Source: Sporomusaceae bacterium
Lineage (GTDB): Bacteria > Bacillota > Negativicutes > UBA1444
Length of the DNA stretch: 64,000 nucleotides
Direction: 5' to 3'
NCBI GenBank assembly: GCA_018434355.1
Contig: JAHDPL010000007.1
Coordinates: 124,001 to 188,000 of the forward strand
Under the pieces are notes generated by a model. It saw only the letters and a program-made list of their open reading frames with translations, searched no databases and was not told where the DNA came from. This document shows positions 34,458 through 40,670 of the stretch, one piece after another (position 1 is the first letter of the stretch; each line of letters starts with the position of its first letter). Position numbers and translations under genes: made by a program.

Positions 34458-35483
34458 ATGAAGAAGAGTACATTATTATTGATGGTATTCATCCTAGTGG
34501 CAGCCTTGCTTGCCGGTTGCGGCGGCGAAAAAAAAGATGCGGCTCCGGCGGCGAATAAGCCGATCAAGATTATTGCCGCTCACAACCAGACCTCGCCGGA
34601 TAACCCGTATCAGGTCGGCTTGCTGAAATTCAAGGAAGTTGTCGAAAGCAAGTCAAAAGGACAAATGACCGTTGAAGTGCATGCCGGTACGTTGGGCACC
34701 AATGAGAACGAACTGGTGGAAAAGCTGAAACTGCGAGCGGTAGATGCTGTTGTCGTATCGCCTGGTTTCATGACCCAAACAGGCGTAAAAGAAGTCGACC
34801 TGTTGGCGTTGCCATATCTGTTCGATAGCTATGACCACTGGAAAAAAGTCATCGATGGAGATGTCGGCAAACAATTGGCTGAGATGATCAATAAAAAGTC
34901 CAATAATGATTTCAAAATCGTTGGCTACTGGTCTGCCGGCGTACGCCACTATTATGGAAAAAAACCCTTGAATTCGATGGCTGATCTTAAAGACATGAAA
35001 ATCCGTACCCAGACTTCCGGCGTCATTGGCGATTTTTGGAAAGGTCTTGGCGCAATTCCTACCTCGGTAGCTTGGGGTGAACTCTATCAGGCATTGCAAC
35101 AAAAGACGGTTGACGGCGCTGAAAATGCCTATCCGTATTTTGTGCAACAAAACCATCACAAAACAGAAAACGGAAAATACACTACCGAAATTGGCGCAGA
35201 CTACACAACCCGGTTCTTACTGGTCAATGGCAAGAAATTTGATGCGATGACCAAAGAGCAGCAACAAATCATTTTGGAAGCGGCCAAAGCTTCGGTCGAT
35301 GCAGAACGGGCTTCCGTAATCGCCCAGGAAAAAGAATACAAAGAAAAAGCGATAAAAGATGGCGCCGTGGTGAATTCGATTGACCGCAAGCCTTTTATTG
35401 CGGTCGCATTACCGATCCAGGACAAGTTTGCCAAGAGCATCGGTGCGGAAGCACTGGTGAAGAAAATCCGCGAAACGAAATAA
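34458..35483 (+). CDS. TRAP transporter substrate-binding lipoprotein (DctP family)
   Basis: A 341-residue binding protein. The lipoprotein signal ends in LLAGC with C21. The DctP family signatures include the KIRTQTSGV strand with the conserved substrate-carboxylate-binding Arg, followed by GAIPTSVAWGELYQALQQKTVDGAEN. Such proteins bind C4-dicarboxylates, sugar acids or other carboxylates. It has its own candidate operator region and is followed by a strong hairpin before dctQ. The start is ATG with GAGGGGGA about 12 bases upstream. Confidence 0.95.
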   Translation: MKKSTLLLMVFILVAALLAGCGGEKKDAAPAANKPIKIIAAHNQTSPDNPYQVGLLKFKEVVESKSKGQMTVEVHAGTLGTNENELVEKLKLRAVDAVVVSPGFMTQTGVKEVDLLALPYLFDSYDHWKKVIDGDVGKQLAEMINKKSNNDFKIVGYWSAGVRHYYGKKPLNSMADLKDMKIRTQTSGVIGDFWKGLGAIPTSVAWGELYQALQQKTVDGAENAYPYFVQQNHHKTENGKYTTEIGADYTTRFLLVNGKKFDAMTKEQQQIILEAAKASVDAERASVIAQEKEYKEKAIKDGAVVNSIDRKPFIAVALPIQDKFAKSIGAEALVKKIRETK

Positions 35484-35493
35484 CGCTTGCCTG

Positions 35494-35536
35494 TACCGTT
35501 GGGGTTGGGCTCGAACCAACTCCAACGGTATTTTTT
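35494..35536 (+). terminator. Intra-operon hairpin between dctP and dctQ
   Basis: A 15-bp stem (35494-35508 with 35516-35530, one G-U pair), a 7-base loop and TTTTTT. It is a good intrinsic terminator in form, so expression of dctQM probably depends on read-through. Confidence 0.8.
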
Positions 35537-35571
35537 CAACCTGACAAACAAGCAAGAGGTGTTGGCACAAT

Positions 35572-36051
35572 ATGAATTTGAAACTGATGGAGCGCATTCA
35601 ACTGGTTGTTGGTGTTGCCTGCTTGTCGATATTTCTGGTGACGATTCTGATCCAGGTTTTTTCCCGTTATCTTGGCATTTCAGTCATGTGGTCGGAAGAG
35701 GTGGCCAATTTTTCTTTTATCTGGGCGGTATTCATGGGAGCGTCTATCATGCACAACAAGCAGGAGCATTTTAAATTCACGATGATTGCCGATAAACTTA
35801 CCGGCAAGAAAAAAATCGCGCTGGATATTTTCAACAACTTGATATTGCTGACATTCAACCTGCTGATATTTTACTACGGCGTGCAAACCGTCCTAAATTT
35901 CTGGGATTATACTTGGGTTTCGTTGCCGCTGAAAATGGGCTATGTTTGGCTTTGCATCCCGATAATGGGGTTTAGCATGAGCATGTACACGTTGTCGCAC
36001 TTGATTGGTAATGTCCGGCAGTTGCGCACCAAGGAGGCGGAACTGCGATGA
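35572..36051 (+). CDS. TRAP transporter small permease (DctQ family)
   Basis: A 159-residue protein with four helices (LVVGVACLSIFLVTILIQVF, NFSFIWAVFMGASIM, NNLILLTFNLLIFYYGVQTV and GYVWLCIPIMGFSMSMYTL). The conserved WSEEVANFSFIW motif of DctQ is present. The start is ATG with AAGAGGTG upstream, and the stop overlaps dctM by an ATGA. Confidence 0.95.
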   Translation: MNLKLMERIQLVVGVACLSIFLVTILIQVFSRYLGISVMWSEEVANFSFIWAVFMGASIMHNKQEHFKFTMIADKLTGKKKIALDIFNNLILLTFNLLIFYYGVQTVLNFWDYTWVSLPLKMGYVWLCIPIMGFSMSMYTLSHLIGNVRQLRTKEAELR

Positions 36052-37328
36052 GCGGATTTTTGCTGGTCTTATTATTTCTAGTTTTGATCATCATCGGAAT
36101 TCCGATTGCTTTTTCAATTGCGATTGTTGCCCTGGTGGGAGTCATGGGGGTTCCCTATATTCCGGAGATTACAGTGCCGATGAAAATGTTCAACGGCTTG
36201 AATTCTTTTGTTTTATTAGCGGTGCCATTGTTCATCCTGGCTGCCAATCTGATGAACAGCGGACAGATTTCGCAAAAACTGATCGATTTTTCCATCGCAA
36301 TCGTCGGTCATATTCGTGGCGGACTGGCGCATGCCAATATTCTTGTATCGATGATTTTTGCCGGAGTATCCGGTTCCTCAACGGCAGACACGGCCGGAGT
36401 CGGGAAAATTTTAATCCCGAACATGATGAACACCGGTTATGATAAGGAAACCGCCGTTGGGGTCACAGCGGCCTCCTCCACGATCGGCGTCATTATACCG
36501 CCCAGCATTCCGATGATTGTTTACGCCGGTTTGACAAACGCGCCGATTGCTGCCCTGTTTGTGGCTGGAATCGTGCCAGGAGTATTGATTGGTCTGGGAA
36601 TGATGTTGGTTGTCTATGTGATGTCCTTCAAATGTGGCTATCCCAAGTATCAGAAAACGACGATGCCGCAATTTCTGAAACTGTTGCTGGACACGATACC
36701 GGCATTACTTACGCCGGTAATCATCATCGGCGGAATCGTCACGGGCTGGTACACTGCGACGGAAGCGGCGGCGTTCGCTTGCCTCTATGCTTTGGTGATC
36801 AGCATGTTTGTGTATAAGACGCTGACGTTACGCGACTTGCCTATTGTATTGATTGAAACCTTGAAACTTAGCTCTTTGTCGCTGTTTGCCCTTGCCGCTG
36901 CCAGTGCGTTGGGTGAGCTGCTCGGGTACTACAGGGTGGCGACTGCCGCCGAGGCTTTTTTTACAACTTACATCACAAGTCCCTGGATATTTATGACGAT
37001 TGTGATTGCCTTTTTCTTGTTTATTGGAACCTTTATGGATGCGATTCCGGCGATGATTTTGTTCATCCCTGTCTTACTGCCGATTTCGTTGAAACTTGGC
37101 ATCGATTCGGTGTTGCTCGGGATTGTCACTGTCATCACACTGGCAATTGGTCTGATCACGCCTCCCTATGGGCTTTGTTTGCTGATTGCTTCGTCAATCG
37201 GCAATTTGCCGATTGAACGATCGTTCAAGGCGGTGCTGCCGTATTTGACAGTGATTTTAGTAGTCCTGGTATTTGTAGCTTATTTTCCTGACCTTAGCAT
37301 GATGTTGCCAAGAATGATGAATAAGTAA
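36048..37328 (+). CDS. TRAP transporter large permease (DctM family)
   Basis: A 426-residue membrane protein with about 12 helices that carries out sodium-coupled transport together with DctQ and DctP. Family blocks include FVLLAVPLFILAANLMNSG, the GVSGSSTADTAGVGKILIP loop and ASSTIGVIIPPSIPMIVYA. Length is normal. The gene is coupled to dctQ and followed by a terminator. Confidence 0.96.
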   Translation: MSGFLLVLLFLVLIIIGIPIAFSIAIVALVGVMGVPYIPEITVPMKMFNGLNSFVLLAVPLFILAANLMNSGQISQKLIDFSIAIVGHIRGGLAHANILVSMIFAGVSGSSTADTAGVGKILIPNMMNTGYDKETAVGVTAASSTIGVIIPPSIPMIVYAGLTNAPIAALFVAGIVPGVLIGLGMMLVVYVMSFKCGYPKYQKTTMPQFLKLLLDTIPALLTPVIIIGGIVTGWYTATEAAAFACLYALVISMFVYKTLTLRDLPIVLIETLKLSSLSLFALAAASALGELLGYYRVATAAEAFFTTYITSPWIFMTIVIAFFLFIGTFMDAIPAMILFIPVLLPISLKLGIDSVLLGIVTVITLAIGLITPPYGLCLLIASSIGNLPIERSFKAVLPYLTVILVVLVFVAYFPDLSMMLPRMMNK

Positions 37329-37349
37329 ACGATAAATATTTTATGCCCG

Positions 37350-37394
37350 AACTGCCCCGAAGTTTGAAGTGATTTCAAGCGGCGGGGCGGTTTT
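37350..37394 (+). terminator. Terminator after dctM
   Basis: AACTGCCCCG (37350-37359) pairs with CGGGGCGGTT (37383-37392), with a small inner hairpin in the loop and TTTT at the end. Confidence 0.65.
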
Positions 37395-37464
37395 CATGCA
37401 ATGCAGGAAAATTGATCGGCAGAACGAATACGGAACAATAAGAACAACAGTGGGAGGTAAGTTC

Positions 37465-38295
37465 ATGACAACGACAAAAACTGAAACTGCAATTCAGGTT
37501 GATTTGGCGAAATGTACGCGTTGCGGCTTTTGCGCTGAGGTCTGTCCATCGGGAATCATTCGTGTGGATGTAAACGGTCCGTCACTAATAGCACCAAAGG
37601 CCTGCATAAAGTGCGGTCACTGCGTCGCGGTCTGTCCTCATGCGGCGATGGACCACAATCGCAACCCGCTGGCAAAACAAGTGAAACGTCAGGCAAGTTT
37701 GACGGTTTCCGCCGAGATGGCCGAACAGTTCTTGCGCAGCCGGCGCTCGATACGCGCCTATAAGCCGGAAAAGGTTTCGCAGGAAAAAATACTGCGGTTG
37801 TTAAATGTAGCGCGGTTAGCGCCCTCGGGCGGAAATTCACAGGGAGTCTCCTTTTTGGTTTTAAGTGATGCTGCTGTGTTAAATCAAATATCAGCGGCGG
37901 TAGTCGATTGGCTGGAAGAACAAATCAACCAGGGTGTGGCATGGACAAAACCTTACGCCGGGATGGCAAAAATCTATCGCGAAACCGGTTACGATGTAGT
38001 GTTGCGGGGCGCGCCGCACCTGCTGCTTTCATTGGCTGCGACAGGCAATCCGATCGGTCGCGATAATGGTCGCTATGCATTGACTTATGCAGAACTATTT
38101 GCAACTTCTTTGGGTCTGGGAAGTTGCTGGGCGGGCTTCTTTGAAATGGCCGCCTTTTCGAATTATCAACCGCTGCTGGACCTGATCGGGGCGCCGGAAG
38201 GCAAGACGATTACCGGCGCGATCATGCTGGGAGTGCCAAAACATCAGTATCAACTTTTGGTAGAACGTAATCCGCTGGATGTATTGTTTAAGTAA
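37465..38295 (+). CDS. Ferredoxin-nitroreductase fusion protein
   Basis: A 276-residue fusion. Residues 10-60 are a two-[4Fe-4S] ferredoxin (C17, C20, C23, C27 and C47, C50, C53, C57). From about 88 a nitroreductase-fold FMN domain follows (RSRRSIRAYKPEKVSQEKIL, APSGGNSQGVSF). Such fusions take electrons from low-potential donors inside an anaerobic cell. ATG 37465 has GGGAGGT upstream. The gene has terminators on both sides and so may be separate from the TRAP operon, although it closes the cassette. Substrate unknown. Confidence 0.92.
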   Translation: MTTTKTETAIQVDLAKCTRCGFCAEVCPSGIIRVDVNGPSLIAPKACIKCGHCVAVCPHAAMDHNRNPLAKQVKRQASLTVSAEMAEQFLRSRRSIRAYKPEKVSQEKILRLLNVARLAPSGGNSQGVSFLVLSDAAVLNQISAAVVDWLEEQINQGVAWTKPYAGMAKIYRETGYDVVLRGAPHLLLSLAATGNPIGRDNGRYALTYAELFATSLGLGSCWAGFFEMAAFSNYQPLLDLIGAPEGKTITGAIMLGVPKHQYQLLVERNPLDVLFK

Positions 38296-38318
38296 AGACA
38301 GGCGTGTAGTGCGCAGAA

Positions 38319-38368
38319 TAAAGCGGGATGACTGTCAAGTATTTTGCCTTGACAGTCATCCCGCTTTA
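38319..38368 (+). terminator. Very long hairpin terminator before ylxM
   Basis: A perfect 21-bp stem (38319-38339 with 38348-38368) with an 8-base loop ends in TTTAATTT. Its right arm contains the TTGACA of the ylxM promoter. Confidence 0.85.
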
Positions 38369-38377
38369 ATTTATAAT
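38349..38377 (+). promoter_or_regulatory. Perfect-consensus SigA promoter for ylxM-ffh
   Basis: TTGACA (38349-38354), 17-base spacer, TATAAT (38372-38377). The expected start site, 7 bases downstream, is the A of the ylxM ATG, so the transcript should be leaderless. Confidence 0.88.
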
Positions 38378-38383
38378 CAATCC

Positions 38384-38746
38384 ATGATTGAAAAAATGCT
38401 TCGCATTGGCCGGTTATATGATTGCTACGGCGCGTTGCTGACAGAGAACCAGCAAAAATGTCTGGAACTCCACTACCTGCAAGATCTGTCGCTGGGCGAG
38501 ATCGCAGCCGAATTGTCGGTTTCCCGGCAGGCAATCAATGATATGTTGCGTCGGGCAGAAGATTCTCTGGAACAATACGAAGCGAAACTCAACCTGTATT
38601 CGCAGGAACAACAACGGTTGCAATCGTTGCGGGAGCTACGGAGAATAATCATGGACGCAAATGGATCCTCCCCGGTGGATCCTGCACTGCTTACACTGGC
38701 TGTCGAAAAAATCGACGATATTCTCAAACAAGAGATGAGGGACTGA
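38384..38746 (+). CDS. ylxM: YlxM family DNA-binding/SRP-associated protein
   Basis: A 120-residue helix-turn-helix protein of the sigma-70 region-4-like YlxM family, always encoded before ffh and thought to modulate SRP. The signature DLSLGEIAAELSVSRQAIND is present, and the C-terminal half is coiled coil. ATG 38384 aligns with Bacillus YlxM. No ribosome binding site precedes it because the promoter ends 6 bases upstream. ATG 38396 is the only other candidate and also lacks one. Confidence 0.93.
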   Translation: MIEKMLRIGRLYDCYGALLTENQQKCLELHYLQDLSLGEIAAELSVSRQAINDMLRRAEDSLEQYEAKLNLYSQEQQRLQSLRELRRIIMDANGSSPVDPALLTLAVEKIDDILKQEMRD

Positions 38747-38749
38747 GGC

Positions 38750-40099
38750 GTGTTGTTTTCGGGATTGGCGGATCGTTTACAAGGTATCTTTAAGAATCTG
38801 CGTGGCCGCGGTCGTTTGTCGGAGACCGATGTCAACGAGTGTTTGCGCGAAGTACGCATGGCGCTACTGGAAGCTGACGTAAACTTCAAAGTGGTAAAAG
38901 ACTTCATCGCCCGGGTCAAAACCCGCGCTGTGGGGGCCGATGTGCTGGAGAGTTTGAATCCGGCCCAACAGGTCGTTAAAATCGTTTACGAAGAAATGAC
39001 CGAAATGATGGGCGGCGCTCAGCGAAGCATCACTATGGCGTCCGAGCCACCTACCGTAATCATGATGGTCGGCTTGCAGGGTTCCGGCAAGACGACGACA
39101 GCTGCCAAACTAGCCAGACACTTTGCCAAACAAGGCAAACGTCCCTTATTGGTTGCGGCTGATTTGTATCGACCGGCTGCCGTGCAGCAACTGCAGACGC
39201 TTGGCAAGCAGCTGGACATTCCTGTTTTGGCGATCGAAGGAGAATCGAATCCGCTGGCGGTTGTTCGGTCGGTTCGCGAGACTGCGCTGTCGCAGCTGCG
39301 TGATGTCGTGATCGTTGATACGGCTGGACGATTGCATATCGACAGCGAACTGATGAACGAGCTTAACAATATCAAGGCACTGGTCAAACCCCACGAAATC
39401 ATGCTGGTGGTTGACGCAATGACCGGACAGGATGCGGTTAATGTCGCGGAAAACTTCCATGGCGTGGTAGGAATCGACGGGATCATCCTGACAAAGATGG
39501 ACGGCGATGCGCGCGGCGGCGCGGCGTTGTCGGTCAGGGCAGTCACGGGCCGGCCGATAAAATTTGTCGGTAGCGGCGAAAAAACCGAGAACTTGGAAAT
39601 GTTCCACCCGGACCGGATGGCGTCGCGGATTTTGGGAATGGGCGATATGCTCAGCCTGATAGAAAAGGCGCAGGAAACTTTCGACAAAGATAAAGCGATG
39701 GCTTTGCAGCAAAAAATGCGCAAAGACGAGTTTACTCTCGATGACTTTTTGACACAGATGCAGTCGATCCGGAAAATGGGTTCGTTTGAACAATTGCTTG
39801 GCATGATTCCCGGTTTGGGCGGCAAAATGAAGCAACTCCAGGATATGCAGGTCGACGAAAAGGACATGAATCGGGTGGAAGCGATCATTCAGTCCATGAC
39901 TAAAAAAGAACGCCGCGACCCCTCGATAATCAATGGCAGTCGCCGCAAACGCATCGCTGATGGCAGCGGTACCCGGGTGCAGGACGTCAATCGATTGTTG
40001 AAGCAATTTCTTGAAGCGCGCAAGATGATGAAGCGTATGCAGGGGATGCAGAAGGCTGGACAAAAACTTTCTTCCTTCCGGTTGCCTTTTGGCAATTGA
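38750..40099 (+). CDS. ffh: Signal recognition particle protein Ffh
   Basis: Ffh is the SRP54 homologue that binds signal peptides and the SRP RNA. The 449-residue protein has the N domain, GTPase motifs GLQGSGKTTTAAKLA, ADLYRPAAVQQL, VDTAGRLHIDSEL and TKMDGDARGG, and a Met-rich M domain ending ARKMMKRMQGMQKAG. GTG start with a GAGG-rich stretch upstream. It lies 3 bases after ylxM. Confidence 0.97.
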   Translation: MLFSGLADRLQGIFKNLRGRGRLSETDVNECLREVRMALLEADVNFKVVKDFIARVKTRAVGADVLESLNPAQQVVKIVYEEMTEMMGGAQRSITMASEPPTVIMMVGLQGSGKTTTAAKLARHFAKQGKRPLLVAADLYRPAAVQQLQTLGKQLDIPVLAIEGESNPLAVVRSVRETALSQLRDVVIVDTAGRLHIDSELMNELNNIKALVKPHEIMLVVDAMTGQDAVNVAENFHGVVGIDGIILTKMDGDARGGAALSVRAVTGRPIKFVGSGEKTENLEMFHPDRMASRILGMGDMLSLIEKAQETFDKDKAMALQQKMRKDEFTLDDFLTQMQSIRKMGSFEQLLGMIPGLGGKMKQLQDMQVDEKDMNRVEAIIQSMTKKERRDPSIINGSRRKRIADGSGTRVQDVNRLLKQFLEARKMMKRMQGMQKAGQKLSSFRLPFGN

Positions 40100-40149
40100 G
40101 ATTGACGAATATCCAATGATGGCTTGATTATGAAAAGGAGGTGAAAGAT

Positions 40150-40434
40150 ATGGCAGTAAAAATTCGTTTGCGTCGTATGGGTGGCAAAAAGGACTCTTTC
40201 TTCCGGATTGTGGTGGCTGACGCCCGGTCTCCTCGCGATGGGCGGTTTGTTGAATCCATCGGTTATTATGACCCGACCACAGAGCCGGCGACAGTGAAAA
40301 TGGATGAAGAAAAAGCGCTTGAGTGGATCGCCAAAGGCGCCCAGGTTACCGATACGGTAAAAGCCCTGCTGCAAAAGCAAGGGACCCTGAAAAAAATCGA
40401 AGAAATGAAACAACAAGCCCGGAAGGAGGGCTAA
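40150..40434 (+). CDS. rpsP: Ribosomal protein bS16
   Basis: A 94-residue 30S protein. [20 protein letters not shown] and [16 protein letters not shown] are the S16 signature. ATG 40150 has AAGGAGGTG upstream. It begins the conserved rpsP-khpA-ylqD-rimM-trmD run. Confidence 0.98.
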
Positions 40435-40439
40435 TCCAG

Positions 40440-40670
40440 ATGAAGGAACTCGTCGAATTGTTGGTGCGGTCTCTGGTGAAAAACCCGGACCAAGCCTGCG
40501 TTACGGAACGTATTGAAAATGACACCTGGATTTATGAAGTGACAGTTGCCCAGGAAGACATGGGCAAGGTCATCGGCAAGCAGGGGCGTATTGCCAAAGC
40601 GATCCGTACTGTGGCCAAAGCAGCGGCAACCCGGGATAATCGAAGGGTAATGGTGGAGATAATCGGATGA
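40440..40670 (+). CDS. khpA: KH-domain RNA-binding protein KhpA
   Basis: A 76-residue single-KH protein that partners with KhpB (Jag/EloR) in RNA binding and control of cell division in Gram-positive bacteria. The GxxG loop is GKQG in GKVIGKQGRIAKAIRT. The start follows GGAAGGAGGG at the end of rpsP, and the stop overlaps ylqD. Confidence 0.96.
   Translation: MKELVELLVRSLVKNPDQACVTERIENDTWIYEVTVAQEDMGKVIGKQGRIAKAIRTVAKAAATRDNRRVMVEIIG

Follow-up and report, generated by a model that had tools for sequence, protein, structure and literature searches.

The promoter of ylxM and ffh in a Sporomusaceae genome lies partly within a long perfect hairpin and ends almost against the ylxM start codon, which raises the question of what the hairpin does and where the mRNA of these SRP genes begins. 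The stretch of DNA that was analyzed, here called the window, comprises 64,000 nucleotides of contig JAHDPL010000007.1, and every feature given below is on its plus strand. ylxM (38384 to 38746) encodes a UPF0122 protein with a sigma-region-4-like HTH, a member of the SRP accessory family (NF045758, 94.8 bits against a curated cutoff of 80) and a candidate autorepressor, and is followed by ffh (38750 to 40099), which encodes the SRP GTPase (TIGR00959, 615.7 bits). The gene upstream (37369 to 38295, start codon uncertain) encodes a ferredoxin and nitroreductase-like protein, and its stop codon lies 24 nt 5′ of the hairpin. We note that positions 34458 to 37328, 5′ of that gene, encode a DctP-like solute-binding protein and then a small and a large TRAP-type membrane protein, as named from translations only.

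Promoter geometry and the start of ylxM

The left arm of the hairpin (T38319 to G38339) and its right arm (C38348 to A38368) form 21 perfect pairs around an 8-nt loop, TATTTTGC (38340 to 38347), and the −35 element TTGACA (38349 to 38354) lies within the right arm. Thus, both the perfect 21-bp hairpin with TTGACA in its right arm and the sharing of bases between hairpin and −35 element, as claimed in an initial annotation of this DNA, were borne out. The further order of elements proposed there was also found: a 17-nt spacer separates the −35 from the −10 element TATAAT (38372 to 38377), and a 6-nt discriminator, CAATCC, separates the −10 from the ATG of ylxM (38384 to 38386). This promoter is the sole 12/12 match within positions 37000 to 40500, and the 6-nt discriminator places the expected +1 at A38384. 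Genome-wide (3.9 Mb), 12 perfect TTGACA/TATAAT promoters are followed by an ATG 4 to 24 nt past the −10, and only the ATGs of ylxM and of an alaS-like gene open a long ORF. The pattern TATAATN4-9ATG occurred 125 times in the genome versus 65 times for a reversed-pattern control, in a count made without gene starts.

In the family alignment (A1), the homologous start of YlxM falls at ATG 38384. A Shine-Dalgarno (SD) site was looked for there and at the next in-frame ATG, 38396, and was found at neither; translation from a downstream codon with a ribosome binding site, the outcome that the initial annotation had set against its own proposal, therefore finds no SD at that ATG. To compare relatives, ylxM upstream regions were taken from 110 Negativicutes genomes, two of which, the window's own and L005 (the genus-mate), represent the window's genus. 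The genus-mate YlxM is 57% identical to that of the window. Its upstream region retains CCTTGACAGT, the 17-nt spacing, and TATAATCAATCC directly abutting the ATG, whereas little of the spacer and nothing farther upstream is shared. Because the gene upstream of ylxM also differs between the two genomes, the promoter arrangement appears to travel with ylxM.

Conservation in relatives, which the initial annotation had named as a check, thus extends to the genus-mate but not to the class, as nearly all of the 110 genomes have a consensus promoter far upstream, a leader, and an SD. An SD match of at least 4 nt was present in 101 of the 110 class members, and the best match was 2 nt in the window and the genus-mate. 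Once L062 was left out of the low-SD set for a misassigned start codon, only these two genomes, among correctly assigned starts of the 110, had both TATAAT-6-ATG and no SD match longer than 2 nt. What stands of the original claim of a leaderless ylxM is a geometry kept in both genomes of the genus and the lack of an SD; the +1 is a predicted rather than a mapped position. Given the conserved TATAAT-6-ATG, the missing SD, and the rarity of the arrangement among perfect promoters, we conclude that the ylxM mRNA is probably leaderless, with its +1 at the A of the ATG.

A conserved dyad inside the hairpin

The inner part of the hairpin is a 22-bp dyad, TGTCAAG-N8-CTTGACA (38333 to 38354), a predicted operator whose right half-site holds the −35. 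A dyad was scored when 12 of 14 half-site bases matched at a spacing of 8, and dinucleotide shuffles served as controls. TGTNAAG-N8-CTTNACA was present upstream of ylxM in 102 of 110 Negativicutes (0.1 in shuffles) and at 48 of 60 other ylxM loci, mainly from Bacilli and Clostridia (0.0 in shuffles), counts that are not independent because the genomes are related. At a spacing of 7, the dyad was found in 5 Negativicutes and at 11 other loci, and spacings of 4 to 6 and 9 to 12 each gave at most 2 loci. Some of the ylxM loci scanned, such as Enterococcus L199, had no recognizable dyad. We also note that a locus from a MAG labelled, by a binning taken as given, as belonging to another phylum (L200, Nitrospiraceae) has the perfect dyad TGTAAAGGAAAAAACCTTTACA at a distance of 37 nt on the 5′ side of ylxM.

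Across the class, a first copy of the dyad, O1, sits on the −35 of a TTGACA-17-TATAAT promoter. Many class genomes also have another copy between the +1 and the SD; this second copy, O2, is often TGTAAAG-N8-CTTGTCA. Among the Negativicutes, O1 occurs in 62 different sequences and O2 in 48. In Bacilli and Clostridia, O2 is mostly TGTAAAG-N8-CTTAACA, and O1 often has TGTTAAG or TGACAAG at N7/8 from CTTGACA. The centers of O1 and O2 are mostly 50 to 53 bp apart, with a second group at 61 to 64 bp among the other loci; distances of 46 and 56 to 58 bp were also found, and these are out of helical phase. In genome G117 (L120) and Acidaminococcus intestini (L181), the dyad is instead downstream of ylxM, on an ffh promoter located between the two genes, and therefore ylxM itself would not be autoregulated there. 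The genus-mate has TGTAAAG-N8-CTTGACA at the same place as the window. Its left half-site is O2-like (compare L031 TGTAAAGGGTTTTCCCTTGTCA with TGTAAAGGGAAAACCCTTGACA), and thus the promoter in that lineage may have shifted onto O2, consuming the leader.

The dyad has one copy in the window's genome. A strict pattern run against 16 genomes returned 12 sites, of which nine are at ylxM-ffh, two lie 5′ of rpsP in Bacilli, and one is elsewhere. In the Bacilli loci L246 and L241, an identical 22-mer, TGTTAAGAAAAAACACTTTACA, lies between ffh and rpsP with the −10-like hexamer TAATAT 17 nt on, before rpsP; here the dyad recurs on a second promoter of the gene cluster. Palindromes of the form TGTCAAGT-ACTTGACA with shorter spacing (18, 19, or 21 bp) also recur away from ylxM in several relatives (e.g., G006:C1:601016, G032:C20:2298, and G014:C12:39652), and these are perhaps the sites of different regulators. 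The left half-site was also considered as mere coding sequence for the FtsY C terminus (..DK-stop). That reading was rejected, as roughly half of the genomes without an ftsY recognized directly upstream retain the half-site; a dyad that persists there is not a by-product of coding for FtsY. We conclude that the dyad is conserved upstream of ylxM and very likely functions as an operator.

As RNA, the full hairpin had an MFE of −41.9 kcal/mol versus −14.85 ± 2.92 for shuffles (z, −9.3). Its sequence is single copy in the 3.9-Mb genome scanned, and a mobile or REP-like repeat was rejected for that reason. A terminator scan picked up the stem, and the U-rich tail that follows the right arm, TTTAATTTAT, is interrupted and gives a moderate U tract. 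The genus-mate lacks the outer 14 bp of each arm (38319 to 38332 on the left). A perfect dyad core was found in 10 Negativicutes genomes, nine of them without ftsY recognized directly upstream; several of the 10 extend the core outward, some with a T-run after it, and the window is the extreme of these extended cores, with 14 extra pairs. We think it fairly likely that the outer arms form a lineage-specific intrinsic terminator for a new upstream neighbor. The initial description of a terminator-promoter fusion accordingly suits the outer 14 bp, which are terminator-like, but not the core, a Bacillota-wide 22-bp promoter element that is kept in species where it is too weak and mispaired to terminate.

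YlxM as candidate binder and the proposed mechanism

The predicted structure of YlxM (pLDDT, 92) matched the solved YlxM structures 1xsv and 1s7o and then sigma region 4, the domain that reads the −35. Against many sigma region 4 chains, the model gave Z scores of 8.4 to 9.8 over residues of about 3 to 76, and against Taq region 4 on −35 DNA, it gave a Z score of 9.5. Foldseek E values for sigma region 4 were weak (0.1 to 1), and KorA-operator complexes (5clv and 2w7n) were weaker Foldseek matches of low significance. Residues R48, Q49, A50, and D53 of YlxM are invariant in alignment A1, and by sequence register we take R48 and Q49 to correspond to the R and E of SigA region 4.2 that contact the −35. 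YlxM is a candidate reader of the dyad because the half-site resembles a −35 box, as expected of a sigma-4-like domain, and local autoregulation is pointed to because the site is almost unique to an operon that begins with a gene for an HTH protein. YlxM is, we estimate, somewhat likely to be the binder. The dyad has a conserved position on the promoter of the candidate regulator itself and is specific to the operon, as would be expected of an autoregulatory operator. YlxM is reported to be an accessory protein of the SRP, binding both Ffh and scRNA (PMC8546722), and the HTH might therefore be used to contact RNA or protein; it is conceivable that SRP status is linked to repression through YlxM.

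In the mechanism that we propose, the core at 38333 to 38354 would be a DNA operator overlapping the ylxM-ffh −35 and the genus form of a Bacillota-wide element. A YlxM dimer on the half-sites TGTNAAG and CTTNACA, 8 bp apart, would block SigA, and expression of the SRP genes would thereby be under negative feedback. The genus of the window would have lost the ancestral leader, the SD, and the second operator copy, leaving a promoter that abuts the start codon, so that the mRNA is most likely leaderless, and the outer arms would serve the upstream gene as an added intrinsic terminator. Leaderless transcription would then probably be a genus-specific derivative of the conserved operator-like dyad. 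We give a slightly better than even chance to this combination of an operator dyad on the −35, YlxM as its likely binder, and a leaderless variant in the genus.

Alternative readings and known systems

The dyad could instead act as RNA, a protein- or SRP-RNA-responsive hairpin in the transcript that serves as an attenuator or in translational control. The perfect hairpin of the window, the location of O2 in the leader adjoining the SD, and the reported scRNA binding by YlxM (PMC8546722) would fit such an element. Most conserved copies, however, are mispaired as RNA: mispairs occur in 53 to 74% of distinct sequences, at 3/20 in the O1 and O2 copies of Negativicutes or at 4/19 in the O2 copies of both groups, and pairing is also poor at the inner positions, so the dyad is most likely a DNA operator, with two half-sites at fixed spacing as the better fit. 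Moreover, O1 is located 5′ of its own +1 and so is missing from its own transcript, the window's dyad is outside the predicted transcript altogether, and a search of five loci for Rfam matches with E values up to 0.1 returned none, by which a known RNA family was rejected. We consider an RNA element very improbable. Only a little less so is a plain intrinsic terminator of the upstream gene, with the −35 inside it by chance and no protein bound. The stability of the stem, its U-rich tail, its position shortly after a stop codon, and the perfect arms that are also extended, in some cases before a T-run, in relatives without ftsY upstream would all be expected of a terminator, but such a stem would not account for a core that is kept where it is weak, mispaired, without a T-run, or overlapping the end of ftsY, for a second copy within the leader, or for a genus-mate that has the dyad without the long hairpin.

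If the dyad is an operator, SRP synthesis may be controlled through it by a transcription factor that is not YlxM. Any protein that binds DNA as a dimer would suit the conservation and the spacing, and the dyad controls ffh alone in some genomes and has a copy at rpsP in Bacilli; set against this are the near uniqueness of the site to an operon led by an HTH protein gene and a half-site that is like a −35 box, as would be expected for a sigma-4-like reader. We regard another factor as somewhat unlikely and retain YlxM as the candidate. It is unlikely, too, that ylxM is not leaderless and is instead expressed by read-through from an upstream promoter or translated from ATG 38396. The leaderless 5′ end is a prediction from sequence, and the in-frame ATG 12 nt downstream is also present in the genus-mate, but a very stable hairpin stands between any upstream promoter and ylxM, neither ATG has an SD, the family alignment backs the first ATG, and TATAATCAATCC with its abutting ATG is identical in the genus-mate.

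More broadly, we tentatively suggest that YlxM combines the roles of SRP component and autorepressor. Its sigma-4-like domain would read the −35 itself as a half-site of a Bacillota-wide operator, at ylxM-ffh and, for certain Bacilli, at rpsP as well, linking SRP transcription to SRP supply; within the genus of the window, a single dyad would serve as operator, −35, and part of a terminator and would drive a leaderless mRNA. A literature search, the coverage of which did not include Williams 2014, the main YlxM paper, found no earlier account of the ylxM-ffh dyad and no report of a regulator for the SRP operon of Bacillota. In the literature found, YlxM has a DNA-binding-type fold without an explained role, and a near-unique, phylum-wide dyad on the ylxM-ffh promoter makes both that role and regulation of the SRP operon directly testable. 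The window's genus shows compaction of a control region until leader and ribosome binding site vanish.

Each part of the locus resembles a known system and departs from it. Like an intrinsic terminator, the hairpin has a GC-rich perfect stem and a U-rich tail shortly after a stop codon, but the stem has at its core an older promoter element that is conserved, and the U tract is interrupted. Predicted leaderless genes of Firmicutes are found mainly in Lactobacillales and Mycoplasma (PMC3160421); ylxM of the window shares with bacterial leaderless genes a −10 box 6 nt before the ATG and the lack of an SD, but it is an isolated case in a class with SD-led ylxM genes. The window protein belongs to YlxM/UPF0122 (1xsv and 1s7o) by sequence and fold and is encoded with ffh, whereas the literature found on the family concerns SRP, Ffh, and scRNA binding (PMC8546722) rather than an operator or autoregulation. 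KorA-type plasmid repressors are dimeric HTH proteins on palindromic operators with a low-significance fold match to YlxM, but they have no demonstrated sequence relation to it, use another operator, and control plasmid genes. Finally, YlxM shares its HTH fold with sigma-70 region 4 on the −35 (e.g., 1ku7), and the half-site CTTGACA resembles a −35 box, but YlxM is without the other sigma domains and its candidate site is a dyad of two half-sites at a fixed 8-bp spacing.
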